From: a bacterium
GTDB lineage: Bacteria; Patescibacteriota; Patescibacteriia; UBA9934; GWF2-40-263
Direction: 5' to 3'
Assembly: GCA_020057555.1 (NCBI GenBank)
Contig: JAGVFR010000017.1
Span: 1 to 44,793 of the forward strand
Length of the DNA stretch: 44,793 nucleotides
Below are positions 9,806-31,633 of the stretch, one piece after another. Position numbers and translations under genes: made by a program. Position 1 is the stretch's first letter. The number at the start of each line of letters is the position of its first letter. The notes below the pieces were generated by a model. That model saw only the letters and a program-made list of their open reading frames with translations. It ran no database searches and was not told where the DNA came from.

Positions 9806-9992
9806 GGCAATAAAGATAGTCCTGTCGTTTGTTTAGTAGAGACAGACAGGCCGACTTTTTCTTGGCCTTATACATAGAGTAGAGGCAGAAAAAGCGTCCC
9901 GTAACTGTCTCTTGTGGACCTTTGTGGTTTATTGGTTGGTTGAAGGCTGAAGAGTGGGGTTTTTAAGATCGTTCGGTTATCTTTATTACAAT

Positions 9993-11126: not shown

Positions 11127-11183
11127 CCTCTTGGTCCTCTTAGTCCTCTTCGACCTCTCCCCACTTTCTGCTATAATATCCCC

Positions 11184-12305
11184 ATGCGAATCGGGATTGA
11201 CGCAAGAATGTACGGTCCGGAGGTGGGTGGCGGTGGTTTAGGTCGATATGTTGAACAACTGGTAAATCATTTGCCAGAAATCGATCACCAAAACCGCTAT
11301 GTTTTTATTATGAAAGAAGGGGCAAGTGGAAAGGGGCGAGTGGAAAGGGAAAAATTGGAAAGTGTCACTACCCCAATCCACTGGTACACACTCAAAGAAC
11401 AACTTTTTCTTGCGCCGCTCATTGACAAACAAAAATTGGATCTTGTTCATTTTCCACACTGGAATGTTCCAATCAAACTTCGAACACCGTTTGTTGTCAC
11501 AATCCACGACCTTATCTTGCTTGAAGAACCACGCTCTGCTCGCGCAACAACAAAACATCCGTGGATCTATGGTTTGAAATATCTTGGATTCCGTAAAGTT
11601 CTTACACACGCGATTCAGTCTTCAAAAAAAATCATTGCGGTTTCGCAAGCAACAAAGAATGATATTCTAAAACACTTCCCAAGTGTTCCTGAAGATAAAA
11701 TCAGTGTGATTTATGAAGGTGTTACGCAATTGAAACAGACACACCAAGCCACGGCTGAAGCCGTGGGCTACCCATTCCTTCTATACATCGGTAATTGCTA
11801 CCCGCATAAAAATCTCGAAACACTGCTTTCTGCTTTCTCGATACTTCATAAACAAATACCGGATTTACATCTAGTGATCGCTGGACGAAGCGATGTGTTT
11901 TTCAAAAGGCTGAAAGACGGATCCAACTCACTCGAAGCAGTGTCGTTTATACACTTTGAGGAAAATCCATCAGACGAACGACTTTCAGAACTTTACGATC
12001 AAGCGGAATTGTATGTCTTCCCTTCTCACATTGAAGGATTTGGACTTCCGCCACTTGAGGCTATGAGTCAATCAACACCTGTCGCATGTTCTGATATTCC
12101 GTCACTTAAAGAAATTCTTGGAAACGCCGCTGTATATTTTCCAAAAAATAATCCTGATGAAATAGCAAAAGCCATTTCCGAAATTATAAACGACCCTAAC
12201 AAAAAAACAGAACTCATCAATCGTGGGCTCGAGCAAATCAAAAACTATTCTTGGAAAAAAATGGCAGAAGAAATTGTGAAACTTTATAACGACTGTGCCA
12301 ATTAA
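11184..12305 (+). CDS. Glycosyltransferase family 4
   Basis: MRIGIDARMYGPEVGGGGLGRYVEQLV; FPSHIEGFGLPPLEAMSQSTPVACSDIPSLKEI. Contains an in-frame palindromic insert (see findings). Confidence 0.93.
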   Translation: MRIGIDARMYGPEVGGGGLGRYVEQLVNHLPEIDHQNRYVFIMKEGASGKGRVEREKLESVTTPIHWYTLKEQLFLAPLIDKQKLDLVHFPHWNVPIKLRTPFVVTIHDLILLEEPRSARATTKHPWIYGLKYLGFRKVLTHAIQSSKKIIAVSQATKNDILKHFPSVPEDKISVIYEGVTQLKQTHQATAEAVGYPFLLYIGNCYPHKNLETLLSAFSILHKQIPDLHLVIAGRSDVFFKRLKDGSNSLEAVSFIHFEENPSDERLSELYDQAELYVFPSHIEGFGLPPLEAMSQSTPVACSDIPSLKEILGNAAVYFPKNNPDEIAKAISEIINDPNKKTELINRGLEQIKNYSWKKMAEEIVKLYNDCAN

Positions 12306-16653: not shown

Positions 16654-18030
16654 TTAGTTGTTGTAGCCCTTGGCGTAAGGACGACAGACGCGGCCTTTCA
16701 AGGCAAGGAACCTGACAAGGATCGTTTGATGACGAGGCGGCAGAGATGTTAGGTACCCATCTGACGGACCACCTACTCCGCACACGAGTTCAACGAATTT
16801 TCGCTTGATCTTGTCCTGGGAACGTTGTTTTTTCAGCAGAATTTGCTCGGCTTCACGCGCGTTCTGTAGCTGATATCTTTCATAAGCTGTATTCTCAAGC
16901 CAATCCTTCACCATTCTAACAATGAAGGCTGCGACACCAGTGAGAATGACGGCCAGCACGACAAAACAGATAGTCATTGCTATCACAATCCCAACTTCAT
17001 GGAAACGATATACAAGAAAGTATGATATGAGTCCGACAGAAACCCATAGAATCGGCATGAGCAGAATGCGCAGGAGCACTGGAAATTTCTTGAATTGCTC
17101 GCCCGACTTTCTTCCGATTGTCCAGTATCCTTCTGCCATTCCGATCGAATGCGACGCCCAGTTTGCATTGATGTTTTTTAGGTCCAAAGCAAACGGACGT
17201 AAAATCGGAACAAGCGAAATCCATCGCCAGCCAATGAGCGCGAGAGTGAGTGCGAAGACGACTCCGCAAACTGCGCGCAATAGAATCCAGAGCAAGATCA
17301 TTGGCGGCTGGATTGTGAACGCAGTTATCATGCGCCTTCGAAAATGACACTCGTTTTTTTGTTTGCTTTCGAACCAAAGATTCACCCACCAAGAAAGCCA
17401 CGCAGGAGGAGCTGGCGCAAAGAACTCCTGGTCTATATTTACCTTGTACTCGTCGAAATCCGAGACAACTGGAAAAGCCACACACCCTAAATTATAGCCC
17501 GATTTTCCAATTTTTTTGATGTCAGGACGTCCGTATCCAAGGAAACTTGAACCAGACTTGATGATCGGTTCAATATATTCGAAAGCAGAAAACTGACCTG
17601 CTCTATCATGTTCAACATCAGCTCTCACTATCGTTGTGTAGATAGTGAATTCACCAGATTCGTAGAACTCGAGACGTGTTCCACCTTGTTTGAGCGGAAC
17701 AAGCTTTTGTTCGATGTCAAATCCATCTCTTTTAACAAGAATCAAGAGAAATGGATTGAAGATAAGCTCTTCCCCAAGCCTCTGCAAAAATTCTGGTGAA
17801 AGACACCATGTCATCTCGAGGCCCGGGCTTGCCTTGTCTGGCTGAACGATGTTCACTTTGTACGGAGCACCTGGAACTGTCTCCACACGAATCGGCCCGG
17901 CTTCTCTTGTCTCTTGCCTCTTGCCTTCGTTCGAATCCGGCTCGGTTTCTGTTGGTTGTCCTGATCCTGCACCAGCAGAAGCCTGCGCAACGAACATTCG
18001 TCGCTCTCTCTTTTTTCTCTTGCTGCTCAT
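16654..18030 (-). CDS. Multi-TM membrane protein of unknown function
   Basis: 458 aa ORF with SD (agaggtaaaagggATG), TTGACA-17-TACTCT promoter and terminator. Hydrophobic segments near ILLRAVCGVVFALTLALIGW, ILWVSVGLISYFLVYRF, IVIAMTICFVVLAVILTGVAAFIV. Confidence 0.8.
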   Translation of the reverse strand: MSSKRKKRERRMFVAQASAGAGSGQPTETEPDSNEGKRQETREAGPIRVETVPGAPYKVNIVQPDKASPGLEMTWCLSPEFLQRLGEELIFNPFLLILVKRDGFDIEQKLVPLKQGGTRLEFYESGEFTIYTTIVRADVEHDRAGQFSAFEYIEPIIKSGSSFLGYGRPDIKKIGKSGYNLGCVAFPVVSDFDEYKVNIDQEFFAPAPPAWLSWWVNLWFESKQKNECHFRRRMITAFTIQPPMILLWILLRAVCGVVFALTLALIGWRWISLVPILRPFALDLKNINANWASHSIGMAEGYWTIGRKSGEQFKKFPVLLRILLMPILWVSVGLISYFLVYRFHEVGIVIAMTICFVVLAVILTGVAAFIVRMVKDWLENTAYERYQLQNAREAEQILLKKQRSQDKIKRKFVELVCGVGGPSDGYLTSLPPRHQTILVRFLALKGRVCRPYAKGYNN

Positions 18031-18125: not shown

Positions 18126-18136
18126 CCAACAACAAA

Positions 18137-18246
18137 GTTTTATTCCCTGAGCCTGTCGAAGGGATAAAATTTGGATAATTTGTCTACAGCCTTCGACAAC
18201 CCGCCCGTTCCGAACGGAACGTTCGGGCGGGGCTCAGGCAATAATT
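18137..18246. repeat. Dispersed palindromic element copy A with nested 32-nt palindrome
   Basis: ccctgagcctgtcgaaggg ... ccttcgacaa[cccgcccgttccgaacggaacgttcgggcggg]gctcagg. Related copies at 39147 and 41226. Confidence 0.85.
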
Positions 18247-18323
18247 AAGAGTATTTCAACAACATCACTTCTTTTCACAAAATCGGCAAAAACAAGCCGA
18301 TTATTGTTTTTCCTTATATAAGG

Positions 18324-18352
18324 TTGACAAAAACACGCTTTTCAACTAAGTT
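18324..18352 (+). promoter_or_regulatory. Putative sigma70-type promoter of the SBP/VWA/PspA/ABC/AAA operon
   Basis: ttgaca-17-taagtt, followed by a 5' leader containing the ttcggac-ttt-gtccgaa hairpin. Confidence 0.6.
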
Positions 18353-18468
18353 CTTGCATTCGGACTTTGTCCGAAAGTTCCTTCACTTTTGTGAAAAACC
18401 ACACGGACGAGCCTGTCGCGTACGAGTGGAAAACAAATGACAGGATACTGAAAGAAGGGGGAAGTTCG

Positions 18469-20373
18469 ATGCGAAAGAGTGCGTGGTTCCTGATGGTGCT
18501 CGTTGTCATGGCCTTCATCGGATGCGAGAAAAAGCCTCCGGAAACAACCAGTCCGACGGTTCAGCAAGGCGCTCCGACCTCTGGAGTTCCTCAAGCATCA
18601 ACCCCTGCAAGCGCGCCCAAGCTCTCGGCAAAGTTGCCTGGCAACAGTGTTCTTCCTGGAGCTCCGGACCAGCTCGGCTTCATTCTCTGGGGAGCAGACT
18701 ACGCAATGTTCTACTGCAACGGCGGTTTGCAGACTCGTGATGGAACGATCTGCGCAGAGTACGGCTTGAACTTCAAGCTCGATCCAGGCGACAACATGGA
18801 TCAGCAGATCGCTGACTACAAAGCTGGCAAGACTCACTTCTTGCGCGGCGTGTACCAGATGGTCGGCAAGCGCGTTGTCGAACTTTGCAAAGATCCTGAC
18901 TTGTGTCCAATTCCGTTCTTGCAGATGACGTGGTCAAGCGGCGATCACCTAGTATGTCGTGAAGCGATCAAAGATCTCAAAGAGCTGCCTGGAAAGACAA
19001 TCGCCATGCAGACAGGAGGTCCACACGAAGGATTTTCCAATGACCTGATCGAAGACGTCAACTTCAAATTCAGTGACGTGAAGATCAAGTGGACAGCGAA
19101 TCTCAACGGCCCAGATTCTCCGCCCGAAGCATTCCGAAATGACCAGAGTGTTGACTGCGCGTTCGCAATCACACCTGACATGATCGGGCTCACAGGCGGA
19201 CTGCAGTCAGTCGGAAGTGGAGCAGAAGGAAGTGTAAAGGGAGCGCACGTGTTGGTCTCGACAAACGACCGACGACGTTCAATCCCTGATATGTACTTCG
19301 TCTCTGCAAAGTTCGCGCGAGAAAATCCGGAAGTCGTGACCAAGTTCACTGCCGCGTACCTCAAGAGCGTTGAGAAAATTCTCGAACTCAAGAGCGCCTA
19401 CGAAGGTTCTGGCGGATCTCCGGAATACGAAGCACTGCTCGCTTTCGCTGTCGAAACGTACGGAACAACCGCGCTTCCAAATGCGGATGAAGCGCACGGG
19501 CTTTTGCTCGACTCTTCATTCGTGGGTCATGCTGGAAACGTCCAGTTCTTTGATCCAAAAACTGACATCGGCAACGTGCATTTCTCAAAGCGATCAAACG
19601 ACCTCGCGGCCGCGCTCAACATCACAACCGAGCGAAATGACCTGCTCAACTCTCCAATCGACTGGACTCACACGATCTTCAGTGGACTGAAGAGTGCAAA
19701 CATCAAGGCTGGTGCGCGATTCAATGCAGAGGCTTCGCAAAGAGAAATTGAAAAGCTGGACCAGCAAGGCGTTCTTGACGCAAACACAGTCCTCTCGTTC
19801 GTGATCTACTTCAACGAAGATCAGACAGAGTTCGACGCTACAAAGTACAGCGCCGAGTTCGATCGAGTGATCAAGCTTTCCAAAACCTACACGCGAGCTC
19901 CAATCGTGATTCGTGGACACACGGATACGACAGGACTGATCGCAAAGGTTTTGCGAACTGGCATGAAACTCGGAGTGATCCAGCAAGCTGGATCGCCAGG
20001 AAACTACAGTTACTCAATGAACGGCGAGCCGCTCGATCTCAAGAATGCAAAGAAGCTCATGGATCTCGTGCACATGTCAACGTTCAACGAAGGACATGAG
20101 CAAGGCACGAGTCCGGCAGAGATCGCAAAGGCCGCTCAGGACTTCTCGCGTGATCGAGCAGAAGCGGTTCGTGCATCATTGCTCGCCTACGCAAGCAACA
20201 TCCCAGGCGCAAAGCTCGACCCAACTCAAATCCAGGTGAAAGGTGAAGGAGTCACAAAGCCGTTCATCTTGAAGCCGCGATCAGAAGCAGAAGCGGCCAA
20301 GAACAGACGCGTCGAATTCTCCATCATCCGAGTCAGTGCCGAAGCAACATCCAAAACCGACTTCGAACTGTAG
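18469..20373 (+). CDS. Lipoprotein with NitT/TauT-type solute-binding domain and C-terminal OmpA-like domain
   Basis: Lipobox VVMAFIGCEKK; SBP-like region; IVIRGHTDTTG ... RDRAEAVRASLL ... AKNRRVEFSIIRV (OmpA-like). SD gaaggggga. TTG-started extension to 18367 rejected. Confidence 0.82.
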   Translation: MRKSAWFLMVLVVMAFIGCEKKPPETTSPTVQQGAPTSGVPQASTPASAPKLSAKLPGNSVLPGAPDQLGFILWGADYAMFYCNGGLQTRDGTICAEYGLNFKLDPGDNMDQQIADYKAGKTHFLRGVYQMVGKRVVELCKDPDLCPIPFLQMTWSSGDHLVCREAIKDLKELPGKTIAMQTGGPHEGFSNDLIEDVNFKFSDVKIKWTANLNGPDSPPEAFRNDQSVDCAFAITPDMIGLTGGLQSVGSGAEGSVKGAHVLVSTNDRRRSIPDMYFVSAKFARENPEVVTKFTAAYLKSVEKILELKSAYEGSGGSPEYEALLAFAVETYGTTALPNADEAHGLLLDSSFVGHAGNVQFFDPKTDIGNVHFSKRSNDLAAALNITTERNDLLNSPIDWTHTIFSGLKSANIKAGARFNAEASQREIEKLDQQGVLDANTVLSFVIYFNEDQTEFDATKYSAEFDRVIKLSKTYTRAPIVIRGHTDTTGLIAKVLRTGMKLGVIQQAGSPGNYSYSMNGEPLDLKNAKKLMDLVHMSTFNEGHEQGTSPAEIAKAAQDFSRDRAEAVRASLLAYASNIPGAKLDPTQIQVKGEGVTKPFILKPRSEAEAAKNRRVEFSIIRVSAEATSKTDFEL

Positions 20374-20382
20374 GAGGAAGGC

Positions 20383-21261
20383 ATGAAAAAGATTCTGATT
20401 TCCCTCGCAACAATCCTCCTGCTCGCGTCAAACGCCTTGGCACAGACAACGACTCACGACTACGTGATCGTTGTGCTGGATGGATCTGGTTCCATGAGCG
20501 AACGCATGCAGACAAGTGCCAGAACTTCTATCGTAAAGATGGAAGCGGCAAAGAACGCGCTCAAGAGCGTGCTTCAAAACATTCCGGAAAAAACCCAGGT
20601 CGGAATTCTCGCGTTCACAAACGACCGCATTTGGTGGGTCTGGAAAACTGGAATAGTCAAGTCTCCAGACATCAGCACAGCAATCGATCGCGTCAACGAA
20701 AGCGGTCGCACACCACTTGGATCAGCGATCAAAGCCGGAGCTGATGAACTCATGTTCTATCGCGAACAACAGCTCGGGTACGGACGATTCCAACTCGTCA
20801 TCGTGACAGATGGCGAGGCAACCGACGGCAGTTACATGGACGATGTTACGAAGGAAGTTCGCGCGAGGAGAATACGCATGGACGTAATCGGAGTCGCAAT
20901 GCCTGGCGGTGCAAAACACAGTCTTGCCGCGATCTCTGACTCGTACCAAAGTGCTGACAACGCGCAACAGCTCTCTGACGCAGTAAAGCGCGCGATCAAT
21001 GTGGAGAATACAAAGGGAGTTGCTGGAGTCGATGACTTCCAGATTCTCTCCGGACTTCCAAACGAGATCGCGCAGGCATGGCTTACCGAAGCTTGCAAGC
21101 CAGCGCCCAATTACCCAATCGGTGAATCACCACCTCATCCAAAAGTAGCGCGAACTTCAAACGACATACCAAAGGCAGTGGCACCTCAACAGATGCCAGT
21201 GCAACCAAACCAAAACATCGGCGACACTCCGCCGCCAGGATGCGCAGTTTCCTTTCAGTAG
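20383..21261 (+). CDS. Secreted von Willebrand factor A (VWA) domain protein
   Basis: Signal peptide MKKILISLATILLLASNALAQ; MIDAS VVLDGSGSMSERM; GRTPLGSAI; IVTDGEATDG. SD taggaggaaggc. Confidence 0.9.
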   Translation: MKKILISLATILLLASNALAQTTTHDYVIVVLDGSGSMSERMQTSARTSIVKMEAAKNALKSVLQNIPEKTQVGILAFTNDRIWWVWKTGIVKSPDISTAIDRVNESGRTPLGSAIKAGADELMFYREQQLGYGRFQLVIVTDGEATDGSYMDDVTKEVRARRIRMDVIGVAMPGGAKHSLAAISDSYQSADNAQQLSDAVKRAINVENTKGVAGVDDFQILSGLPNEIAQAWLTEACKPAPNYPIGESPPHPKVARTSNDIPKAVAPQQMPVQPNQNIGDTPPPGCAVSFQ

Positions 21262-21272
21262 CTAATCTTTCT

Positions 21273-21307
21273 GTCGTCTTCTGCCTAAAGCACAAGACGA
21301 CCTTTTT
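21273..21307 (+). terminator. Terminator-like hairpin inside the operon (after VWA gene)
   Basis: gtcgtctt-ctgcctaaagcac-aagacgac then cttttt. Confidence 0.65.
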
Positions 21308-21340
21308 CCCCAGAACAAGTCACAGTGACTTGTCTTGGGG
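21308..21340 (+). other. Second strong hairpin immediately downstream of the terminator
   Basis: ccccagaacaagtcac-a-gtgacttgtcttgggg, ~16-bp stem with one mismatch and one G-T pair. Confidence 0.6.
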
Positions 21341-21386
21341 GCGAAAGCTTTGTCCTTTTCATCACCCTTGCACGAAAGGTTAAATC

Positions 21387-22931
21387 ATGGACCAAGAACG
21401 CAAAGCTGGTCGATGGATCATACTTGGTGTGATCATCCTCGCGTTGATCGCACTTGGCGGTCTTGCATACAAGCACTTCATTTCGCCTGCAGTTCAAAAA
21501 ATGCAGGCAAAAGAAAAGTTGGCCGAACGTTTCAAAGGCGATGCACTTCGCTTTGGCACTGATTGGTTTGCCGGCTATGCAGTTCTGCGATCTCCGTATT
21601 ACCTCGACTTGCTGGCTCAAAAAACAATACACCTTGTAATTGAGGATGAGCCGGATTACAAAAAGCGAATGGAAAAACTCGCTTCTGGTGAACTGCACAT
21701 GGCAGTCTTCACAATCGACACCGAACTAAGCGTTGGGAGTCAATTGGGAAACTTCCCTGGCACGATCGTGCTTGTGATTGACGAAAGCGTTGGTGCTGAT
21801 GGAATAGTCGCCTACAAAACGGCTGTACCAAACGTCCAAGCGCTCAATCGTCCAGACGCAAAGATTGTTCTGTTCAAGGATACGCCAAACGAAACACTCG
21901 CCCGTCACATGATCAGCGGAATGCTTCCGGCTCTGACAGGAGATTCGTGGATCGTTGGTATGGAAAACGAAGAACAGGTTTATAAGGAATTCCTAAGAAC
22001 TCCAAAAACCGCACTTCGCGCTTTCGCGCTATGGGAGCCGTGGCTTTCCAAAACGCTAGAGAATCCAGATGCGATCTTGATCTATGACACAAGCCAAGCA
22101 ACATCAACAGTCGTTGATGTATGGATCGTGAGTAGCGCTTACTACAAAGCTGAACCTGTAAAAGTCAGACAGACGATAGAAACGTACCTACAAGCACTAC
22201 ACCACTACGAATCTCAATCTGGTGGGATGGTGCAACTTGTCATTGACGATGGAAAACAATCTGGTGACAACCTTTCTGAAAAACAGGCTCGCCAAATCGT
22301 CGCAAAAATCCGCTGGAAAAACACGATGGAAAACTACGCCCACTTTGGACTTCTGAACCTATCTGAATCCGGCGGCTTGCAAAGACTCGATTCAATGATT
22401 GCTTCGATCGCGCGCATGCTTGTGAAGACTGGAAAGATTTCTCGTCACCCAATGGCCGGACGTGAACACGAACTCTATGATGACCAAATTCTCTCGGCTC
22501 TCAAGCGTGAGAATTTCCATCCAGGAGATAGTGTTCAACATGATGGAGTGCGAGGTGTGAAAGAACTTCAAGCTCTAACACCGGAACAGTGGAACACGCT
22601 CTTGGTAGTTGGAAACCTTGACGCTCGCTCAATCGATTTTCTTCGATCTCAATCAAGCTTGACTGTTCAAGGCAAGCGCGATGTCGAAGAAGTCGCAGAG
22701 CAACTCAAGGCTTGGCCAAGCTACTATCTCACTGTCGTCGGAAACACGCGCAAGGAAGGAGACCCTGAAGCAAATCGCGTGCTTGCAAAAGCGCGAGCTG
22801 ACACGGTTGTTGAAAAAATGATCCAACTTGGGATCATCAAGAATCGTGTGCGAGGAATTGCTTCAACAGAAAATCAAAACAACCCGCAAGGACAGAGCGT
22901 CACGTTCAAGCTCCTGCGGCAAAGCTATTAG
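21387..22931 (+). CDS. Membrane-anchored NitT/TauT-type solute-binding protein with C-terminal OmpA-like domain
   Basis: N-terminal TM (WIILGVIILALIALGGLAY); SBP-like DALRFGTDWFAGYAVLRSPYYLDLLAQK; C-terminal YYLTVVGNTRKEGDPEANRVLAKARADTVVEKMIQLGIIKNRVRGI. Confidence 0.78.
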   Translation: MDQERKAGRWIILGVIILALIALGGLAYKHFISPAVQKMQAKEKLAERFKGDALRFGTDWFAGYAVLRSPYYLDLLAQKTIHLVIEDEPDYKKRMEKLASGELHMAVFTIDTELSVGSQLGNFPGTIVLVIDESVGADGIVAYKTAVPNVQALNRPDAKIVLFKDTPNETLARHMISGMLPALTGDSWIVGMENEEQVYKEFLRTPKTALRAFALWEPWLSKTLENPDAILIYDTSQATSTVVDVWIVSSAYYKAEPVKVRQTIETYLQALHHYESQSGGMVQLVIDDGKQSGDNLSEKQARQIVAKIRWKNTMENYAHFGLLNLSESGGLQRLDSMIASIARMLVKTGKISRHPMAGREHELYDDQILSALKRENFHPGDSVQHDGVRGVKELQALTPEQWNTLLVVGNLDARSIDFLRSQSSLTVQGKRDVEEVAEQLKAWPSYYLTVVGNTRKEGDPEANRVLAKARADTVVEKMIQLGIIKNRVRGIASTENQNNPQGQSVTFKLLRQSY

Positions 22932-22943
22932 AAGGAGGAAAAA

Positions 22944-23714
22944 GTGCTCGACAAGAAGCAGCGCACACAGCGCATAGCGCTTCGCATGATCGGGCATCCA
23001 TTTGTCGTGATCCCCGGAGTTCTCGGCGCTGGCGCCTTCATACTTTCCCTAATCGGGGTCGGCGGAGGCATTGGAGCCTTTGCCGGAATCATTCTTGCGC
23101 TCATCGCAACCGGTGTCCTAACTTGGAGATTCCTGTTTCGCCTGAAACAAACCTCACAAGAAACACTCGACGACATACAAAAAGAGATCGAGTCAGAACG
23201 TCAGAAACACATATCCAAACTTCGTGGCAAACTATCATCTGACAGAGACAAGCGCGATGAACGATTGCTCGATGAACTGTGCGAAGTAGAACAAGCATTC
23301 AAGGCTGACAAGTCATGGATGGAACAAGCTGGTGCCGGAACTGTCATGCAAGTTCTCAATCGCGTTGGTGAAGTTTTCGAAACTTCACTCAAGCTTCTTG
23401 AACGGTCATTTGATCTACGTCAAACAGCAAACCGTCTTCATGGAGAAGCACGCGATCAATTGCTTAAAACAAGCGATGAAATCCTTGAACAGGTCGGACA
23501 AAGTGTGAACGATCTTGGCAAGATTCTCGCCGGTGTTCAGAAATTGAGTGTTCAACGTCTCACTGGACAAACAATGTATCAGTCGGACTTGCAACAGGGT
23601 GTGAAGGAACTCAAACTGATACTCGACGCCGCTCAACAAGCAGAGGATCGGTGCCAAAAGCTCTTTAGCGGTTCTGGTGATAAGGACAGGTTCGCGGAGT
23701 ATCTGAAGGAATAA
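22944..23714 (+). CDS. Two-TM coiled-coil membrane protein (XpaC/TelA-neighbour-like; family uncertain)
   Basis: GTG start with SD gaaggaggaaaaa; two TM helices (VVIPGVLGAGAFILSLIGVGGGIGAFAGIILALIATGVLTW) then a charged helical domain. Confidence 0.65.
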   Translation: MLDKKQRTQRIALRMIGHPFVVIPGVLGAGAFILSLIGVGGGIGAFAGIILALIATGVLTWRFLFRLKQTSQETLDDIQKEIESERQKHISKLRGKLSSDRDKRDERLLDELCEVEQAFKADKSWMEQAGAGTVMQVLNRVGEVFETSLKLLERSFDLRQTANRLHGEARDQLLKTSDEILEQVGQSVNDLGKILAGVQKLSVQRLTGQTMYQSDLQQGVKELKLILDAAQQAEDRCQKLFSGSGDKDRFAEYLKE

Positions 23715-23778
23715 AGCTAAGGTCTGGGCTTTTGAAAGAAACAGGCTACAACAACTGAATGAAAGGAAGGTACTAGTC

Positions 23779-24615
23779 ATGTTCAGAGCACTCGGTCGTT
23801 ACTTCATGGCATTTCTCTACCTCGCCACAGGACGGATCGATCGCGCGCGCAAGGTTCTCGAGTCAGACCCGCACGTCGTGGCCGCAACCTACGACGAGGT
23901 GATTCGCGAAAAGCGTGGCAGAATCCAGCACTACATGGAAGCCGTGAGCACGCTCATGGCACAGCAGGAAAAAAAGAAGACTGAAGTCAAGCGACTTTCT
24001 GAAGAGGCAGGAAGACTCGACAAGATCAAGGCTGGAGCACTCGCCGCCGCGAAAAGGCGCGCGGCTGAACTACAAGCTTCTGGTAAGTCTGCCGAAGACA
24101 TCAAGCACGACGAGCAGTATCTCAAGCATCAAGGCGCATACCGCGACACAAGCACAACTCTTGAGGAGAAGAAGCAGAGAATCGCGGCGCTTGAAGGAGA
24201 CATCAAGACCTACGAGGGCCAGATCAGCACACACACGCTTCAGCTCCAGGGTCTGAATCGAGAGCTGGAAAATCTGCGAGGCGAAGCGGCCGACTCGGTC
24301 GCTCGCATCATCAGTGCGAACGAACAGAAACAGCTCTCTGACATGCTCTCGGGCTTGAGCACTGACAGAGGTTCCGAACGACTCGCTGGAGTACGGGATT
24401 CGGTCGCGGAAGCCGAGGCAGGAGCCAAGATCTCGAGCAAGCTCGCTGGCACAGACGCCAAAGTTGCAGAGGCAGAGTATCTGTCTTACGCTGAATCTTC
24501 TGCCGCAGACGACGAGTTCGCATCGCTTGTCGGACTCTCTGCCGCAAAGGAAGACGCGGCAAAGGGTGAGAAGGCGACTGCGGACGCCAAGGTCGCGGAA
24601 AGCCTGGATACCTAG
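23779..24615 (+). CDS. PspA/IM30-like coiled-coil protein
   Basis: Long coiled coil (EVIREKRGRIQHYMEAVSTLMAQQEKKKTEVKRLSEEAGRLDKIKAGALAAAKRRAAEL...) with A/E-rich C-terminus. SD gaaaggaagg. Confidence 0.7.
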   Translation: MFRALGRYFMAFLYLATGRIDRARKVLESDPHVVAATYDEVIREKRGRIQHYMEAVSTLMAQQEKKKTEVKRLSEEAGRLDKIKAGALAAAKRRAAELQASGKSAEDIKHDEQYLKHQGAYRDTSTTLEEKKQRIAALEGDIKTYEGQISTHTLQLQGLNRELENLRGEAADSVARIISANEQKQLSDMLSGLSTDRGSERLAGVRDSVAEAEAGAKISSKLAGTDAKVAEAEYLSYAESSAADDEFASLVGLSAAKEDAAKGEKATADAKVAESLDT

Positions 24616-24636
24616 TAGACTCACACGAGCCACACT

Positions 24637-24665
24637 GCGTGAGGAAACTCATCTCACGCTTTTTT
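24637..24665 (+). terminator. Terminator-like hairpin inside the operon (after PspA-like gene)
   Basis: gcgtgag-gaaactcat-ctcacgc-tttttt. Confidence 0.75.
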
Positions 24666-24722
24666 ACACACCGACCGGGAAATACCCGGAAGGAGTGACT
24701 AACAGAAACGGAGGTAGGTTCG

Positions 24723-25898
24723 ATGCGTACTTTCTCAAGGACTTTGCTGGGCATTCTCATGTTCAGCCTCATCGCCCTGTCATTGGGTGGATGCACCAAG
24801 CAGGAGGAAACTGCAAGCACTGTCACCACAACCCAGCCGAGTACGACAACGCCACAGACCGATCTCAAGGCAACGACCGCGACGCCGGAACCGAAGAGCC
24901 CACCGCCCGTCATCACGTTCCTATGGAGCTTTTACACAAGCTGGTCTTTGCTCGCGGCCGCATGCGACTTCGGACTCATCAACGAAAACAAAGGCGAGAT
25001 GGGTTCGCTCGAAAAGGAACACAACGTTGACATCGTGCTCATCAGGCAGGAATACGTTCAGAGCATGACAAGTTACCAGAGCGGAGTCGCAGACGGAGTA
25101 GTCGTCACAAATACTGACGCTCTCTCTCTCGCGTACAGTCGCAAGAAGCTGGTCGGTGATGCAACAGTCGCGGTCTTCCCCACTTCGTGGTCAGACGGCG
25201 CTGACAAGATCTTGGTCGAAAACACGATCAAGGCATGGGCAGACCTGATGGGTGTGACGGTCAAGGGTGCGGAATTCTCCGTATCACATTATCTGTGCTG
25301 GCGTTGCTGTCAGATCAACAACTGCGACTACACCAAGTTCAAGTTCGAGAACTTGGACCCGGTCAAGGGTGCGCCGCTATTCGCAAATGACGAGGAAGGT
25401 TTCCTCGCGTTCGTTGGATGGTCTCCGGAAACGTTCGTCGTTCTCGATCGCCGCCAAGACGTGATCGACATATGCAACTCGAGTATGCTCGAGAAGTACG
25501 AAATCGTTGACTTGGCAGTGATGGGCCAGGACGCGATCGACAAGCCAGGTGGAAAGGACGCGATCTGGGTCCTTTCCGAGGCAATGAATCTGATGGCGGT
25601 CTACATCGTGGATCCGACAAAGACACAACAGGCACACGCGGCAATGTCGAGAAGGTTCAACAACCTGTCATTCGTAGGCATCGATCGTGCACTCGTTCTA
25701 ACCAAGCTCTTGCCTCCGAGGACAGACTGGGCTGTTCTCTCGTCAAACGAAGTTCGCAAGAACATGAAGTACGTTGACGAATTCTCGATCGTGCACAACC
25801 TGACAGAGGGAACTCATGTCCCGTACGGCTGGGGCACGAAAGCGGAAGCGCCAACAGCAGTACTCCGCTTCGACACTTCGTTCCTGTTCGACAAGTAG
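24723..25898 (+). CDS. Lipoprotein NitT/TauT-type solute-binding protein
   Basis: Lipobox LIALSLGGCTKQ; TFLWSFYTSWSLLAAACDFGLI; DGVVVTNTDALSLAY; FLAFVGWSPETF. SD cggaggtagg. Confidence 0.8.
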   Translation: MRTFSRTLLGILMFSLIALSLGGCTKQEETASTVTTTQPSTTTPQTDLKATTATPEPKSPPPVITFLWSFYTSWSLLAAACDFGLINENKGEMGSLEKEHNVDIVLIRQEYVQSMTSYQSGVADGVVVTNTDALSLAYSRKKLVGDATVAVFPTSWSDGADKILVENTIKAWADLMGVTVKGAEFSVSHYLCWRCCQINNCDYTKFKFENLDPVKGAPLFANDEEGFLAFVGWSPETFVVLDRRQDVIDICNSSMLEKYEIVDLAVMGQDAIDKPGGKDAIWVLSEAMNLMAVYIVDPTKTQQAHAAMSRRFNNLSFVGIDRALVLTKLLPPRTDWAVLSSNEVRKNMKYVDEFSIVHNLTEGTHVPYGWGTKAEAPTAVLRFDTSFLFDK

Positions 25899-25913
25899 AA
25901 ATGCTGGAACGCT

Positions 25914-25939
25914 GGCCGAGGTTTTTCCTTGGCCCTTTT
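25914..25939 (+). terminator. Terminator-like hairpin inside the operon (after third SBP gene)
   Basis: ggccgagg-ttttt-ccttggcc-ctttt. Confidence 0.65.
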
Positions 25940-25998
25940 CTTGGGCAGAGCACATCACAAGGATATTGCTCTATCCAAGAGAAGAAAACGGAGGAATC

Positions 25999-26823
25999 AT
26001 GCGCACGCTCATTAAAACCTTCAAACCTCTCTTCATCATTCGAGGAACTGTAAGTCAACGATGGCAAATCGCGATCTTCTTTCTCGCAATTCTATCAATC
26101 ATTGTTGGTTACAGCCTGATGGCATACGCCAAGGACAACAAGCTTTTGCCAACATGGGACATGCTCTTTGTTGGTCTTAAGCGCATTATCACTGATCCTG
26201 AAACAGGAGACCACTATCTTTGGGAAGACACGATCAATTCCTTCAGTCGGATTATTCCAGCAGTTGGAATCGCAAGCGTGATCGGAATCGTGATTGGAAT
26301 GTACATGGGTGTCTATGTTGCGGCAGAGGCATTCTTCTCCAGAATACTCACGTTCATCAGCAACATTGCGCCAACCGCAATCATAGTTCTGTTCATAGTC
26401 TACTTCGGCTACCAATTCAAAATGTACGTGGCCGTTATCGTCTTCGGAATCTTCCCAGTGATCGCCAAAACAGTTTTCGAAGCTGTTAAGGAAATCGGCG
26501 ACGAAGAAATCTTCAGCTTGAAATCACTAAACGCATCAAGCTCGGAGATTGTGTGGACAGTACTCTTCCCTCAAGTACTTCCACAGATCATAAGCGCAAT
26601 CCAACAAGCCTTCGCTCCAGCAATCATCTATGTCATTTCCGCTGAATGGGTTTCTGGATCAAGTGGTTTTGGATATCGCCTCTTCATGTTCTCGCGTTCA
26701 AGCTTGTTGGAACTGACGTTTCCATACTTGCTCTATCTTGGAACTGTTGGTGTTGTAACACTCGCGGTGTTCAACTTGGCAACACGCATCTTGTGCCCAT
26801 GGTACAGAAAGGAGACAAAGTGA
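25999..26823 (+). CDS. NitT/TauT-type ABC transporter permease (SsuC/TauC-like)
   Basis: SFSRIIPAVGIASVIGIVIGMYMGVY; EEIFSLKSLNASSSEIVWTVLFPQVLPQIISAIQQAFAPAIIYVISAEW. SD cggaggaatc. Confidence 0.88.
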   Translation: MRTLIKTFKPLFIIRGTVSQRWQIAIFFLAILSIIVGYSLMAYAKDNKLLPTWDMLFVGLKRIITDPETGDHYLWEDTINSFSRIIPAVGIASVIGIVIGMYMGVYVAAEAFFSRILTFISNIAPTAIIVLFIVYFGYQFKMYVAVIVFGIFPVIAKTVFEAVKEIGDEEIFSLKSLNASSSEIVWTVLFPQVLPQIISAIQQAFAPAIIYVISAEWVSGSSGFGYRLFMFSRSSLLELTFPYLLYLGTVGVVTLAVFNLATRILCPWYRKETK

Positions 26824-27803
26824 TGAACCCGATCGAATGTGTTGATATCACACTCCACTGCGACAATGTTCACAAAGCATTTGAAGAACAACGAGTGCTC
26901 GGTGACATCACTCTCAAGATCGCTCGCGGACAGTTTGTCTCGATCATTGGCGGATCAGGTTGTGGCAAGTCAACTTTGCTCAATATGATTCACGGAACAT
27001 TCAAGCCAACGCAAGGACGTATTCTGATAAACAAGGATGGAGTCGAAACAGAAATCGACGGACATAGTCGTGAACGCGGAATGGTTTTCCAACACTATTC
27101 CATTCCACCACATCTAACTGCGATAAAAAACGTTGCGCTTGGCCCAATGCTAAGTGAAACGTCTATTCCAGGAAGAATGTTGGGACGAGTAACAAGATCA
27201 TGGCCGCGTTTGAGTCGAGAGCATCTGCAAAAAGCAGAAGAGTGGCTTGTTCGATTTGGACTCAAGGATGCATTGCATAAGTATCCTCACAAGCTCTCTG
27301 GCGGAATGAAGCAACGCGTTGCAATCGCACGCGAGCTTATTATGGAGCCTGAAATCCTGCTTCTTGATGAGCCATTCGGCGCGCTCGACGAAGAGAAAAG
27401 AACTGATGCGCAAGAGATTCTTCTTTCGCTCTACGAAGAAAACATGCAAGCGATTACGAGAGGAGAAAAGCCTCCGTACACAATCATCTTTGTCACACAT
27501 TCTCTGCAAGAAGCTGTACTTGTCGGTGACAGAGTCATAGGCATAAGCCGCAACTGGGACTGGCAAAGTGAAGGATTCGATAGGCACCCAGGCGCAAGTG
27601 TTGTTTATGACAAAGTAGCTCCAATATACTCGAAGGATACCCCAATCGATTCTCATCAGATTGAACTTCAAGCAAAAGAACTGCGAGGAGTTGTGCTCAA
27701 GGGAAGCAACATCTCCCGTCAAACCTACTGCACGTTCTGGGATGAAGTTCACAATGGAAGAGGTCGTGGTGTAATGAGTGGGCATGGAGAAAGAGATGAG
27801 TAA
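26823..27803 (+). CDS. NitT/TauT-type ABC transporter ATP-binding protein (SsuB/TauB-like)
   Basis: Walker A GGSGCGKST, signature LSGGMKQRVAIAREL, Walker B ILLLDEPFGALDEE. TGATG overlap with permease. Confidence 0.93.
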   Translation: MNPIECVDITLHCDNVHKAFEEQRVLGDITLKIARGQFVSIIGGSGCGKSTLLNMIHGTFKPTQGRILINKDGVETEIDGHSRERGMVFQHYSIPPHLTAIKNVALGPMLSETSIPGRMLGRVTRSWPRLSREHLQKAEEWLVRFGLKDALHKYPHKLSGGMKQRVAIARELIMEPEILLLDEPFGALDEEKRTDAQEILLSLYEENMQAITRGEKPPYTIIFVTHSLQEAVLVGDRVIGISRNWDWQSEGFDRHPGASVVYDKVAPIYSKDTPIDSHQIELQAKELRGVVLKGSNISRQTYCTFWDEVHNGRGRGVMSGHGERDE

Positions 27804-29649
27804 ACAGTTCGACCTCGCGTTCGACCACACGTTTCGCAAAAAGGCCGGACGCATTCTTGAATCAGGTCAGTCTCGCTCAATTATCCTGTCGGGTAATGTT
27901 CAAGACTTGTTCTATCTCACTCCAGAATTCGCTGGTGACAAATCACCAAACGGAAAATACGTTCCGCTTACTTCATATCTAAGCGCGCGTTGGGGACGAG
28001 TCAAAGACACAATCCTCATCGTGTACGAGTTGAACGGTCCAATCCGTTTCATGAATAACGATGAACGCGAACTTCTGAAAAACGCATGGCCGAGAACAGA
28101 AACTCTCAACGAAGAACCGGAATGGAATCTGCGCACGCTTGTGAACCACGCGAAAGATCAAATCGCTGGTGCACGAAAGAAGACAGATCCATTCGACGAC
28201 TACATGCAACGAGCAATCGGGCGACCAGCAGTTGCCCTTCAGCTCCTTCGCAAGTTCTGCCAACTCTCTCGAGAGGCAGAACCCGGAAGTCCGCTCTTTG
28301 GAAAACAGCTCCTCATTCTTGTTGAGTGGGCTGACATGATTCTTCCAGAAGGCGAAATCTCTCGCTTGAGCGAAGTGGATCGCGAACGAATCATGGTTTG
28401 CCAAGATTGGTTCTCGGATCCAGACTTTCTTGAAGGAGAAGATTCGGTTGTGCTCATCTCTGAATCAAGGAGCATGATCAACAATCGAGTTTCGCAAATG
28501 CCACAAATTCTCGAGGTTGCAATTCCATCTCCGGATGATGCAACAAGAGATCACTTCATCTCGTGGTTCGAAAACGGACAAAAAAAGAAACTCAAGCTCT
28601 GGGGGACACAACAGAATCTTGTCTCATTCAGCGCTGGACTAAGCCTTCATGCTATGCGCCAGATGCTGATCGGTTCAATCCATGATGAAAACGGACTCAT
28701 TCCTGCAGACGTGATCCGTGCAGTTGAAACCTACATCAAGAGCCAACTCGGCGAAGATGCTGTTGAATTCAAAGTTCCAATCCACTCAATGAACGACGTA
28801 ATCGGTTATACATCGCTCAAGCGATTCATCGAAACAGAAGTCGTGCCGAGATTTATCTCAACAGGAGATGACGCACTATCAGGAGCGATTGTCGCTGGCC
28901 CAATCGGCTCTGGCAAGACGTTCATCTGGGAAGCTGTCGCCTCGATACTGGGAATTCCAGTTCTAGTTCTAAAAAACCTGCGAAGCCAGTGGTATGGCCA
29001 AACAGACGTCATTCTTGAACGACTCATCCGCATTCTCATGTCACTTTCAAAGGTCATGATTTTCGTGGATGAAGCTGACACTGTATTCGGCGGTGTTGGC
29101 AAAGACGTTCACGAAACCGAACGGCGTCTCACAGGCAAGATTCAAGGGTGCATGTCAGACACAAGGCTCAAGGGAAAGGTGATCTGGCTTCTCATCACAG
29201 CACGCGTTTATCTGCTCTCGCCAGACATGAGACGAGAAGGCAGAGGCGGAAGTCTCATTGTTCCGATTCTGGATCCTGAAGGTGATGACCGTGATTCATT
29301 CATCACTTGGATGCTAAAGCGTGTCATGTCTGAAGTTCCAGCGAATAACTCAGAAGACTTTCAAAGAATACGCGCAGCAACAATGGGATATTCATCCGGA
29401 GCGTTTTCCTCGCTTCGTAGTGAACTCGTCGCTCTTGCAAAGGGCAGCCAACTCACGATAGAGCAAGTGCTCGCGCGAGTGCACGATCAACTACAACCGG
29501 ACATTGGTCTGACTCGAAAGTATCAGACGCTTCAAGCTATGTTGAATACCACTCGCCGTTGCCTTCTACATGACCCGAAAGTCACAGAGGAACAACGCAA
29601 AGCGTGGTACGACGAAATCCGAGCACTTGAAGCGCAAGGAATCCACTAA
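27796..29649 (+). CDS. AAA+ ATPase with large N-terminal domain
   Basis: GPIGSGKTFIWEA (Walker A), KVMIFVDEADTVFGG (Walker B); N-terminal QSRSIILSGNVQDLFYLTPE and LLILVEWADMILPEG. Overlaps ATPase gene by 8 nt. Confidence 0.88.
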   Translation: MSKQFDLAFDHTFRKKAGRILESGQSRSIILSGNVQDLFYLTPEFAGDKSPNGKYVPLTSYLSARWGRVKDTILIVYELNGPIRFMNNDERELLKNAWPRTETLNEEPEWNLRTLVNHAKDQIAGARKKTDPFDDYMQRAIGRPAVALQLLRKFCQLSREAEPGSPLFGKQLLILVEWADMILPEGEISRLSEVDRERIMVCQDWFSDPDFLEGEDSVVLISESRSMINNRVSQMPQILEVAIPSPDDATRDHFISWFENGQKKKLKLWGTQQNLVSFSAGLSLHAMRQMLIGSIHDENGLIPADVIRAVETYIKSQLGEDAVEFKVPIHSMNDVIGYTSLKRFIETEVVPRFISTGDDALSGAIVAGPIGSGKTFIWEAVASILGIPVLVLKNLRSQWYGQTDVILERLIRILMSLSKVMIFVDEADTVFGGVGKDVHETERRLTGKIQGCMSDTRLKGKVIWLLITARVYLLSPDMRREGRGGSLIVPILDPEGDDRDSFITWMLKRVMSEVPANNSEDFQRIRAATMGYSSGAFSSLRSELVALAKGSQLTIEQVLARVHDQLQPDIGLTRKYQTLQAMLNTTRRCLLHDPKVTEEQRKAWYDEIRALEAQGIH

Positions 29650-29655
29650 CTCAAA

Positions 29656-29683
29656 ACCGAGCATCTCTGCTCGGTATTTTTTT
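29656..29683 (+). terminator. Intrinsic terminator at operon end
   Basis: accgagca-tctc-tgctcggt-attttttt. Confidence 0.85.
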
Positions 29684-29690
29684 ACCCATG

Positions 29691-29747
29691 TGTCATCCTG
29701 CCTGCCCGCCAAAGCTTTAGCAACGGCGGGAACGAAGTGAAGAATCG
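29691..29747. repeat. CPR-style dispersed repeat with nested GC-rich palindrome
   Basis: gtcatcctgcctg[cccgccaaagctttagcaacggcggg]aacgaagtgaagaatc; resembles GTCATCCYGAACGAAGTGAAGAATC interrupted by a CCCGCC...GGCGGG hairpin. Confidence 0.65.
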
Positions 29748-29751
29748 TTTA

Positions 29752-30606
29752 TTATTTTCTAAAAAGCTTAATTGTTTTTTCCATTGACTCTGGAAAATTC
29801 TTATATATTCCGACACGGTATGTTTCATTTGGAATTTTAGCGTGACCACGCGAAAAAGCTGTTTCAGGATAATATCTTGGTTTCCCGATAGCTTGAAAAA
29901 TCTTTTGCGGATCTTCGTAAGCGAGTTGTTTTTCTAAAAATTTATTACTATCAATCTCGTACAAAAGATATAAAATTAAATACAGAGAAAGAATCATGAC
30001 ACTTGTAACTACATATGACAATAACTCTTCTGTTCTAAGAGAAAAAAGCAAAAAAGAAAGTATGACAGTCAAAATAATCAATATGAACCAATGAAGACCC
30101 ATCACAACGCGTGGAGCAGTAAAAGTTATTGACCGAAGCGTCTTAATAAGATTAAATTTTACTTCGTGCATTAAAGTCAAAGCGGCAATTCTTTTTCTTT
30201 TGTTATCTGCTGGTTCAAGTGTATCAATCAAATCAACAATCGATTGAAATTCCTTCTCTGTTTTCTTCGCGTACTCCATAAGCGAAAAATCAAGCGTGGC
30301 TATGTTATAGACATCAATTGCATCACTTAACTTCTTCGCAACATTTGGTTTAACTAATTTAGCAAAATTATAAAGTGAAATTAGATATGCTCCCTCGTCT
30401 GCGAGGTAAGAACAAAAATTTATATAATTCGTTGTTGCTGTTGCAATAAAAAAACCAACCAAAATAGCAAAAATCAATGAAAAAATTGAACTAAGAGTCT
30501 GTACATCAAGGGTAACTGTAAAAAGCGGGATGATAAATGGAAGTAACAATAATAAAATTGGAACTATTACTTCAATTATTATCTTTCTGAAAATATGTCC
30601 GCTCAC
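29752..30606 (-). CDS. DUF4239/bestrophin-like membrane protein
   Basis: GTG start; four hydrophobic segments (IIEVIVPILLLLLPFIIPLF, IFSLIFAILVGFFIA, HWFILIILTVILSFLLF, VVTSVMILSLYLILYLLY). Confidence 0.6.
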   Translation of the reverse strand: MSGHIFRKIIIEVIVPILLLLLPFIIPLFTVTLDVQTLSSIFSLIFAILVGFFIATATTNYINFCSYLADEGAYLISLYNFAKLVKPNVAKKLSDAIDVYNIATLDFSLMEYAKKTEKEFQSIVDLIDTLEPADNKRKRIAALTLMHEVKFNLIKTLRSITFTAPRVVMGLHWFILIILTVILSFLLFSLRTEELLSYVVTSVMILSLYLILYLLYEIDSNKFLEKQLAYEDPQKIFQAIGKPRYYPETAFSRGHAKIPNETYRVGIYKNFPESMEKTIKLFRK

Positions 30607-30711
30607 ATTTTTATTTTTATTTTCTTAAAATAGTTTTGATACGTCTTTACAATTCCACACTTGTATATTTTATCTGAAACAACCAAACAAAACCAGACCA
30701 TCGTTCACCAC

Positions 30712-30751
30712 TTAAATAAAAATCGTCGTACTGGAAGAAACCAATACGACG
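30712..30751 (-). terminator. Intrinsic terminator of the 153-aa orphan gene
   Basis: Minus strand cgtcgtattgg-tttctt-ccagtacgacg-atttttattt. Confidence 0.75.
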
Positions 30752-30769
30752 AGCGAGACAAGAAACGAT

Positions 30770-31231
30770 CTAGATATTGATAACAAGCGTAAGCTTGCCG
30801 TACCGACAACCGAAGTCGTTATTGAAGTACACCCTCGCAGTGCTTTCAAGAACAGCCATGCGAGACTCATATCTCACGTGTGTTCTTAGAGCTTGCGCGA
30901 GTGAGAACCACTCGTTTTTGGCCCATGCGAGTCCGCACAGAAAGTACACGAGCGCGATTGGATGCGGACATGTTCTACCGCGTACGTATCGAACAGGCTT
31001 GTAGCCTTTCTTTCCATACGCGTAGAGCATATAAACATCGAAACCAGCCGAACACAATCCATCCGCAAAACTCACGATGCACCCTTCCCTACTAACATGA
31101 CGCCCCGTAGCCCATCGAACCAGCTCCTGTGGATCCACTGTCCCGAGAAATCTGTCCCCCTGAGACACTCGAACCCACCGCTCCCAGTCCAAGTTCCTCG
31201 CCCTTGTGATCACGATGTCATTTCCACTCAT
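30770..31231 (-). CDS. Hypothetical protein, 153 aa
   Basis: SD caaggagaaaagccATG, upstream TTGACA-17-TATATT promoter and downstream terminator. Confidence 0.75.
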   Translation of the reverse strand: MSGNDIVITRARNLDWERWVRVSQGDRFLGTVDPQELVRWATGRHVSREGCIVSFADGLCSAGFDVYMLYAYGKKGYKPVRYVRGRTCPHPIALVYFLCGLAWAKNEWFSLAQALRTHVRYESRMAVLESTARVYFNNDFGCRYGKLTLVINI

Positions 31232-31376
31232 GGCTTTTCTCCTTGGGCCTTAAAGGCCACTGATGTTGTCTAGAACCTTACTTGCCACGAAGCAGATCTG
31301 GCATCATTTCTAAATCGAATGATGCGAATAATTGTGCTGTTCTATTACCAAATTATTAGTATAAAACAGACAAACA

Positions 31377-31405
31377 AATATACACTAAAATGGTAATTTT
31401 GTCAA
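31377..31405 (-). promoter_or_regulatory. Putative sigma70-type promoter for the 30770-31231 gene
   Basis: Minus strand TTGACA-aaattaccattttagtg-TATATT. Confidence 0.65.
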
Positions 31406-31415
31406 ACAAAAATAT

Positions 31416-31436
31416 CAAAAAACAGCATTTCTGCTG
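31416..31436 (-). terminator. Intrinsic terminator of tRNA-Arg transcript
   Basis: Minus strand cagca-gaaa-tgctg-tttttt. Confidence 0.8.
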
Positions 31437-31460
31437 ATCAATTAATACTGCGCTTTATTT

Positions 31461-31543
31461 ATCATTTTGAAGTCGAACCGTGTCGTAGGGGAACAGCGGC
31501 GACAGTCCGATGGCCCCGTAGACATGGTTCGATTCAAAATGAT
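31461..31543 (-). ncRNA. Candidate structured RNA: long imperfect hairpin between tRNA-Arg and its terminator
   Basis: atcattttgaagtcgaaccgtgtc (31461-31484) pairs with gacatggttcgattcaaaatgat (31521-31543); inner gggg/cccc and cgg/ccg helices. Confidence 0.45.
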
Positions 31544-31556
31544 CGAACGATTTGTC

Positions 31557-31633
31557 TGGTGATCCCGGTGGGATTTGAACCCACAGCCTTCTCCTTCGGA
31601 GGGAGACGCTCTATCCAGTTGAGCTACGGGGTC
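31557..31633 (-). tRNA. tRNA-Arg (anticodon CCG), CCA encoded
   Basis: Reverse strand GACCCCGTAGCTCAACTGGATAGAGC...TCTCC-CTCCGAA-GGAGA...GTGGGTTCAAATCCCAC CGGGATC ACCA. One acceptor mismatch. Confidence 0.92.

Follow-up and report, generated by a model that had tools for sequence, protein, structure and literature searches.

What does an operon that couples an ABC importer core to wall-anchoring and membrane-stress proteins do in a CPR genome, and how did it come to be there? The operon lies in a contig of a tiny Uhrbacteria genome that was analyzed over its whole length of 44,793 nucleotides (JAGVFR010000017.1, hereafter the window), and in a preliminary description it had been put forward as a candidate undescribed envelope system. 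"Undescribed" proved too strong a word: a comparative genomics study (Ravi et al., 2024; PMC11237479) mentions, in one passage and in passing, operons with PspA, a two-AAA protein (inactive N-terminal copy), an ABC ATPase, a permease and PBPB-OmpA, which carry neither a name nor a functional test there. These PspA/Snf7, double-AAA, ABC and PBPB-OmpA operons share their gene set with the operon in the window, and the same link between membrane remodelling and solute transport has been proposed for them; however, the main text of that study is without VWA, TelA, phages and plasmids, and the passage in question is without the three paralogous solute-binding proteins (SBPs) and the motif loss in SBP2. 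New here are the exchange of PspA for TelA, the PspA-CC and PspA-AAA pairs found elsewhere in genomes, the motif contrast between SBP1 and SBP2, and a ~13.4-kb insert.

Gene content of the operon

Nine genes form a single plus-strand operon (18469-29675), in which neighbors are separated by gaps of 9-125 bp or overlap, and which ends with a terminator-like hairpin and T-run (29656-29675) directly 3' of the last stop codon. Every component of the proposed ~11 kb operon is present at the positions given below; none of the nine reading frames is interrupted, and the catalytic motifs are intact.

SBP1 (18469-20373) is a lipoprotein (lipobox ..FIGC) with an NMT1/SsuA-type solute-binding domain (NMT1, E=3.5e-5) and a C-terminal OmpA peptidoglycan-binding domain (E=1.5e-8 by profile search), whose DAP-contacting residues are invariant among homologues (D486 and R563, 81/81 each). 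SBP2 (21387-22931) combines an N-terminal TM anchor, a solute-binding domain (SsuA/urea-SBP models at 1e-5 to 1e-6) and an OmpA-like domain (E=2.6e-9, likewise by profile search), which is kept with an incomplete canonical binding motif (Arg in 55/55 homologues, Asp in 0/55). The suggestion that OmpA fusions tether substrate capture to the wall needs modifying, in that the complete Asp and Arg motif is found in SBP1 only. The third binding protein, SBP3 (24723-25898), is a TauA/SsuA/TIGR03427-like lipoprotein (lipobox ..LGGC), which matches the urea-carboxylase-associated SBP model TIGR03427 at E=3e-24 and 85.8 bits, far under the cut-off of 333.9, and has as its closest solved relatives TauA and SsuA, which bind taurine and sulphonates. 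This kinship does not fix the ligand or allow a substrate class to be assigned. The vitamin or pyrimidine precursor suggested earlier finds no support in any of the evidence.

The permease (25999-26823; PF00528, E=2.5e-13) and the ABC ATPase (26823-27803; PF00005, E=2e-34; Walker A GGSGCGKST, LSGG, Walker B ILLLDEP) complete the ABC core, so that permease, ATPase and an SBP of the family are all present, as in an importer of the NitT/TauT type. By their domains, the permease, the ATPase and the SBPs fall into the superfamily of NitT/TauT/SsuA importers and the putative urea SBP of TIGR03427, but they score far under the equivalog cut-offs, and the operon differs from such systems in its three SBPs (two with OmpA) and its added envelope genes.

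Among the latter, the VWA protein (20383-21261; Pfam, E=8e-13) has a signal peptide and an intact MIDAS (DGSGS, T110, D143), which is invariant (DxSxS, T, D) in 72-73 homologues. The two-TM coiled-coil protein (CC, 22944-23714), a candidate membrane recruiter of PspA/TelA, reaches the cut-off of no Pfam family, and its AF2 model (pLDDT 83) has no fold match in the PDB below E=0.1, so that an ESCRT-III fold is not supported; nor is its identification as PspM/Rv2743c (NF047839, E=0.0012, 18.8 bits vs. an equivalog cut-off of 80).

The next gene (23779-24615) encodes a protein that, taken alone, is not a Pfam PspA_IM30 hit (E=0.35), as compared with 3/22 members of its family at E<0.01. Vipp1/PspA chains rank first when the family profile is compared with the PDB (E=1e-4), and they occupy all of ranks 1-8 in a Foldseek search with its AF2 model (best E=7.5e-4). 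This model, of moderate confidence (pTM 0.51), has helices at 2-16, 20-28, 31-100, 112-192 and 201-250, i.e., the N-terminal helix, long helical hairpin and further C-terminal helices of the fold. The protein is probably a divergent PspA/Vipp1-like member of the ESCRT-III superfamily, an assignment that rests on profile and model similarity and not on a Pfam-level match. In phage-shock-protein systems (PspABC, mycobacterial PspA-PspM) and the Lia system (LiaIH), a PspA-family effector likewise stands beside a small TM protein, and CC is weakly PspM-like; in contrast to them, the PspA of the operon is highly divergent and has ABC, SBP, VWA and AAA partners in addition, while PspB, PspC, LiaI and LiaF were not found within the operon.

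The last gene (27796-29649) encodes an AAA ATPase (PF00004, E=2e-14) with an active, Cdc48-like C-terminal domain (GPIGSGKT, IFVDEAD) and a degenerate N-terminal AAA half, which aligns with the C-terminal half at an hhalign probability of 92% (E=7e-7); Walker A and B are intact in the C-terminal half only. It fits the double-AAA type of Ravi et al. (2024), with two AAA domains of which the N-terminal one is inactive. The pairing of an ESCRT-III-superfamily protein with a classical-type AAA ATPase recalls ESCRT-III/Vps4; however, the nearest solved relatives of the operon AAA are Cdc48/VCP, followed by katanin and an archaeal AAA, its N-terminal AAA half is dead, and Pfam recognises no MIT domain.

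Lateral acquisition and persistence

The operon in the window is laterally acquired. It lies in an inserted segment of ~13.4 kb (18130-31556) between the gene p0 and a tRNA-Arg, which is absent from two congeners: the flanking genes are 1.6-1.7 kb apart in these genomes (G288, G287) vs. 15.0 kb here, and colinearity stops near 18129 and picks up again in the tRNA. GC content is 0.45-0.57 per operon gene vs. ~0.40 in the flanks. The ends of the insert have no common exact repeat >9 bp, and no integrase or phage gene was recognised in it. As for p0 itself (16654-18030, minus strand), membership in the system was rejected: it is native in the congeners, and a homologue was not found at the other loci. 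The operon occurs in 8/43 genomes of the family, and its AAA component was found in none of the 286 further genomes sampled from the phylum, where the search gave only FtsH-like matches. The presence of such machinery in a CPR genome, which had been called unexpected, is accounted for by horizontal acquisition, given the empty site and this distribution. The Uhrbacteria copies form a single clade of their own (support 99), and the system has therefore persisted in the family.

Conservation across genomes, plasmids and phages

Co-conservation was counted in 48 loci of sufficient sequence length that had been fetched with SBP1 alone. All nine genes are present in 15 of these loci, and most of the others, from many phyla, hold most of the genes (VWA in 46, SBP2 in 43, CC in 41, SBP3 in 37, permease and ATPase in 33 each, PspA or TelA in 32). 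Because the gene order recurs in many phyla at loci retrieved by SBP1 only, the operon goes well beyond what chance would produce. The genes are conserved together, which answers the objection anticipated in the preliminary description, and the coupling of an importer core to wall-anchoring and membrane-stress modules that it proposed is supported by their conservation as a unit.

Most homologous loci lie on genome contigs, from Planctomycetota, Desulfobacterota and Acidobacteriota. The operon is also carried on Vibrio plasmids, and eight of the nine genes are present on one 595-kb phage record; the copies on phage contigs lie among phage genes. A terminase was found on LR756511, where a sheath protein was looked for and not found. 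A tblastn search of plasmids with the PspA-like protein gave no match, nor did scans of viral contigs with SBP1 alone or with a PspA alignment; a scan with an SBP1 alignment returned one contig. Partial loci include those of Lak phages (one SBP-OmpA, permease and ATPase only), of a gammaproteobacterium (L072; SBP1, SBP3, permease and ATPase only) and of a member of Spechtbacteria (L112), in whose genome the permease was not found; the two halves can therefore exist separately. One further locus (L100) is not transporter-less, as it has SBP3, permease and ATPase downstream of the AAA, with a few ORFs between.

The PspA slot is occupied by PspA in 26 loci and by TelA in 12 loci, and by both together in none; TelA PF05816 is recognised in 11/11 slot proteins tested (best 6e-73). 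PspA and TelA are unrelated proteins that occupy the same operon slot in a mutually exclusive manner. In Desulfobacterota and Vibrio, the loci with TelA are without this AAA ATPase, as is the phage. Where the locus is without PspA/TelA, seven of eight such genomes carry this PspA elsewhere and six carry AAA, with CC and PspA adjacent in four of these regions and PspA and AAA in two. Both families have been linked to envelope stress and tolerance of cell-envelope agents, a TelA (lmo1967) mutant showing four-fold greater nisin sensitivity (PMC12791056). In the XpaC-TelA pair of Listeria (lmo1966-lmo1967), TelA also stands beside another envelope protein; however, Pfam does not place CC in XpaC, and at the operons described here TelA, in the PspA slot of those 12 loci, has ABC, SBP and VWA partners.

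Discussion

We interpret the operon as an ABC transport system that is anchored to the wall, was acquired laterally and is genetically joined to a PspA (ESCRT-III-type) membrane-protection machine, the net role of which would be envelope protection, and assign to this reading a probability of roughly 45%. SBP1 would be tied to the membrane through its lipid and to the wall through its OmpA domain, and together with SBP2, SBP3 and VWA it may surround the permease/ATPase as an outer complex, which would capture or sense a small solute of the taurine/sulphonate/urea type. On the inside, CC may act as the membrane receptor that brings the PspA-like protein (TelA in other lineages) to the membrane, where either would provide a stabilising scaffold to be stripped or remodelled by the Cdc48-like AAA, as by Vps4 on ESCRT-III. 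Protection of the envelope would in this way be coupled to ligand uptake or sensing.

A nutrient-directed explanation, in which the operon is a specialised NitT/TauT/SsuA importer with three SBPs, VWA, CC, PspA and AAA are chaperones or maintenance factors that keep a wall-anchored transporter in working order, and envelope protection is not its purpose, draws on the complete ABC core with intact motifs, the kinship of SBP3 with TauA and SsuA, and the loci (L072 and Lak phages) that keep binding protein, permease and ATPase without the PspA half. We consider it somewhat unlikely, as the PspA, CC and AAA genes are retained even when relocated in the genome, and SBP1 and SBP2 bear wall-type domains; to our knowledge, usual NitT/TauT importers are without PspA, CC and AAA partners.

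Carriage on Vibrio plasmids and among phage genes, the patchy, inserted occurrence in Uhrbacteria and the exchange between two families tied to cell-envelope-agent tolerance could instead point to a resistance or immunity device, in which a toxin that acts on the envelope (bacteriocin, peptide or metal oxyanion) is captured and cleared by the SBPs and ABC core while PspA/TelA mends the membrane, and which plasmids and phages would carry as protective or superinfection-exclusion cargo. With an ABC core of the import and not the export type, SBPs of small-solute families, a distribution mostly on genome contigs of three bacterial phyla and no defence genes recognised beside the window operon, this appears unlikely. 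Very improbable, finally, is a decaying mobile-element passenger useless to its CPR host: insertion, raised GC and operon-free congeners fit it, but nine open genes with intact catalytic motifs, persistence as a separate Uhrbacteria clade and an insert without a recognised integrase or phage gene argue against it.

The most far-reaching reading would see an envelope machine that is both mobile and widespread: an ABC sensor/importer anchored to the wall steers an ESCRT-III-like scaffold, PspA and TelA are interchangeable membrane effectors, and huge phages and plasmids carry the system to protect or close the host envelope; we regard it as possible, though doubtful. The operon, which ranges over several phyla, CPR bacteria, plasmids and very large phages, offers a functional setting for two groups of proteins that are poorly understood. 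One is bacterial PspA that has an AAA ATPase of its own; the other is TelA, an orphan known as a "toxic anion resistance" protein, which fills that slot as well. The operon also suggests a way in which a single transcription unit may join transport and attachment to the wall with membrane protection of the ESCRT-III type.

Operon architecture and co-conservation

The host genome (849 kb in 30 contigs, 96% complete) carries nine plus-strand genes at 18469 to 29649, in the order SBP1-OmpA, VWA, SBP2-OmpA, CC (a two-TM coiled-coil protein), PspA-like, SBP3, permease, ATPase and AAA, with short gaps or overlaps between them and a hairpin plus T-run (29656-29675) at the 3' end. The three solute-binding proteins (SBPs) are mutually related (hhalign 98-99%); sequence inspection revealed lipoboxes on SBP1 and SBP3, a signal peptide on the VWA protein, one N-terminal TM segment in SBP2 and two TM segments in CC. 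The VWA metal site is invariant. In OmpA, diaminopimelate is known to be contacted by an Asp and an Arg of the peptidoglycan-binding motif; both residues are invariant in SBP1 (81/81 each), and SBP2 has the Arg (55/55) and not the Asp (0/55). The AAA protein comprises a single active domain, near Cdc48/VCP, and a degenerate N-terminal half. As a lone query, the PspA-like protein was not recognized by Pfam. A 22-member profile searched against PDB sequences placed Vipp1/PspA first (E=1e-4), and the AF2 model (pTM 0.51; mean pLDDT 75, mostly 84-98 along the long hairpin) arranges its helices as PspA does and retrieved Vipp1/PspA at Foldseek ranks 1-8; the protein is treated here as a divergent PspA.

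Searching the SBP1 alignment against a collection with one genome per species yielded 78 loci (Planctomycetota, Verrucomicrobiota, Lentisphaerota, Desulfobacterota, Acidobacteriota, Aminicenantes, Uhrbacteria, Nealson- and Spechtbacteria, and others). Gene counts come from the 48 loci whose downstream sequence reaches 8.5 kb or more; a phage record and two Vibrio plasmids are among them. Because SBP1 alone selected these loci, the remaining genes provide an independent test. The counts are VWA 46/48, SBP2 43/48, CC 41/48, SBP3 37/48, permease and ATPase 33/48 each, PspA and AAA 21/48 each and TelA 11/48. Co-conservation, whose absence would have counted against the preliminary description, was borne out, with all nine genes at 15/48 loci and a distribution over many phyla.

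Phages and plasmids

Vibrio plasmids pIFO15640 and pSEA1 have the order ATPase, SBP1, VWA, SBP2, CC, TelA, SBP3, permease. A 595-kb record deposited as uncultured phage (LR756511.1) contains a terminase and the first eight operon genes in window order; these eight lie between matches to the phage families phrog_15577 (E=3.5e-100) and phrog_14336. Viral contig L116 ends after SBP1-VWA-SBP2-CC, and its locus also has DnaB and DNA polymerase phage families. At huge-phage locus L035, a DnaJ-like gene (22803-23834) shortly follows the ABC ATPase. Prevotella Lak megaphages have only an OmpA-fused NMT1-like binding protein followed by permease-like and ABC ATPase genes (L036, 13785-17675; L037, 13860-18694), which may amount to a mini-importer carried by phages. 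The gene for the binding protein was matched in 15/15 Lak records among the matches listed. The term "ABC transporter" is absent from the Lak papers found by literature search.

Probable gain of the operon in Uhrbacteria

Identity of the flanking genes to two congener genomes, G288 and G287, is 89% and 76% on the left and 71% and 74% on the right. These genes lie 1.6-1.7 kb apart in the congeners, enclosing only the p0 gene (native; window 16654-18030, minus strand) and tRNA-Arg, vs. 15.0 kb in the window. The extra ~13.4 kb comprises the operon, a small ORF and a low-GC (0.318) bestrophin-like channel gene (29752-30606, minus strand), which adjoins the operon and is not conserved with it. At the right end, tRNA-Arg(CCG) (31557-31633) differs in sequence from its positional counterpart in the congeners, as though the insertion event had exchanged it. 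The search for an integrase or a clear repeat was negative. Loss from the congeners, instead of gain here, is less likely because of the GC contrast. Within the family, 8/43 genomes carry SBP1, weak fragments excluded. Upstream, the 8720-14805 stretch encodes a DUF4012 protein and three glycosyltransferases; these genes resemble surface-polysaccharide genes and have native GC.

In the SBP1 tree, Uhrbacteria copies form one clade (support 99) and the Nealsonbacteria copy is placed apart, which implies two or more acquisitions of the system by CPR. The two phage copies group in the Planctomycetota-rich part. Locus L039 (MHBF01000038.1, 5.7 kb), labelled Lentisphaerae, is nested within the Uhrbacteria clade, where branches are very short; the label is probably a binning error.

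Functional implications

PspA (26 loci) and TelA (12 loci), an unrelated protein, share a slot between CC and SBP3 and co-occur in 0 loci. TelA accompanies AAA at CPR loci L100 and L112; AAA of the operon type is absent from the TelA genomes of Desulfobacterota, a Vibrio plasmid and a phage. Eight genomes have neither PspA nor TelA at the locus; PspA is encoded elsewhere in 7/8 and AAA in 6/8, with PspA adjoining another CC gene in four such regions and AAA in two. This off-locus retention and pairing argues for CC, PspA and AAA as one functional unit.

Ravi et al. (2024; PMC11237479) mentioned such operons and proposed that solute transport is linked to membrane remodelling; no further descriptions were found in the limited literature searched. 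PspA and TelA have experimental links to envelope-active agents (PMC12791056). The PspA/TelA exchange and the satellite pairs are the strongest functional clues, and the SBP/ABC half points to a small candidate solute of taurine/sulphonate/urea type.
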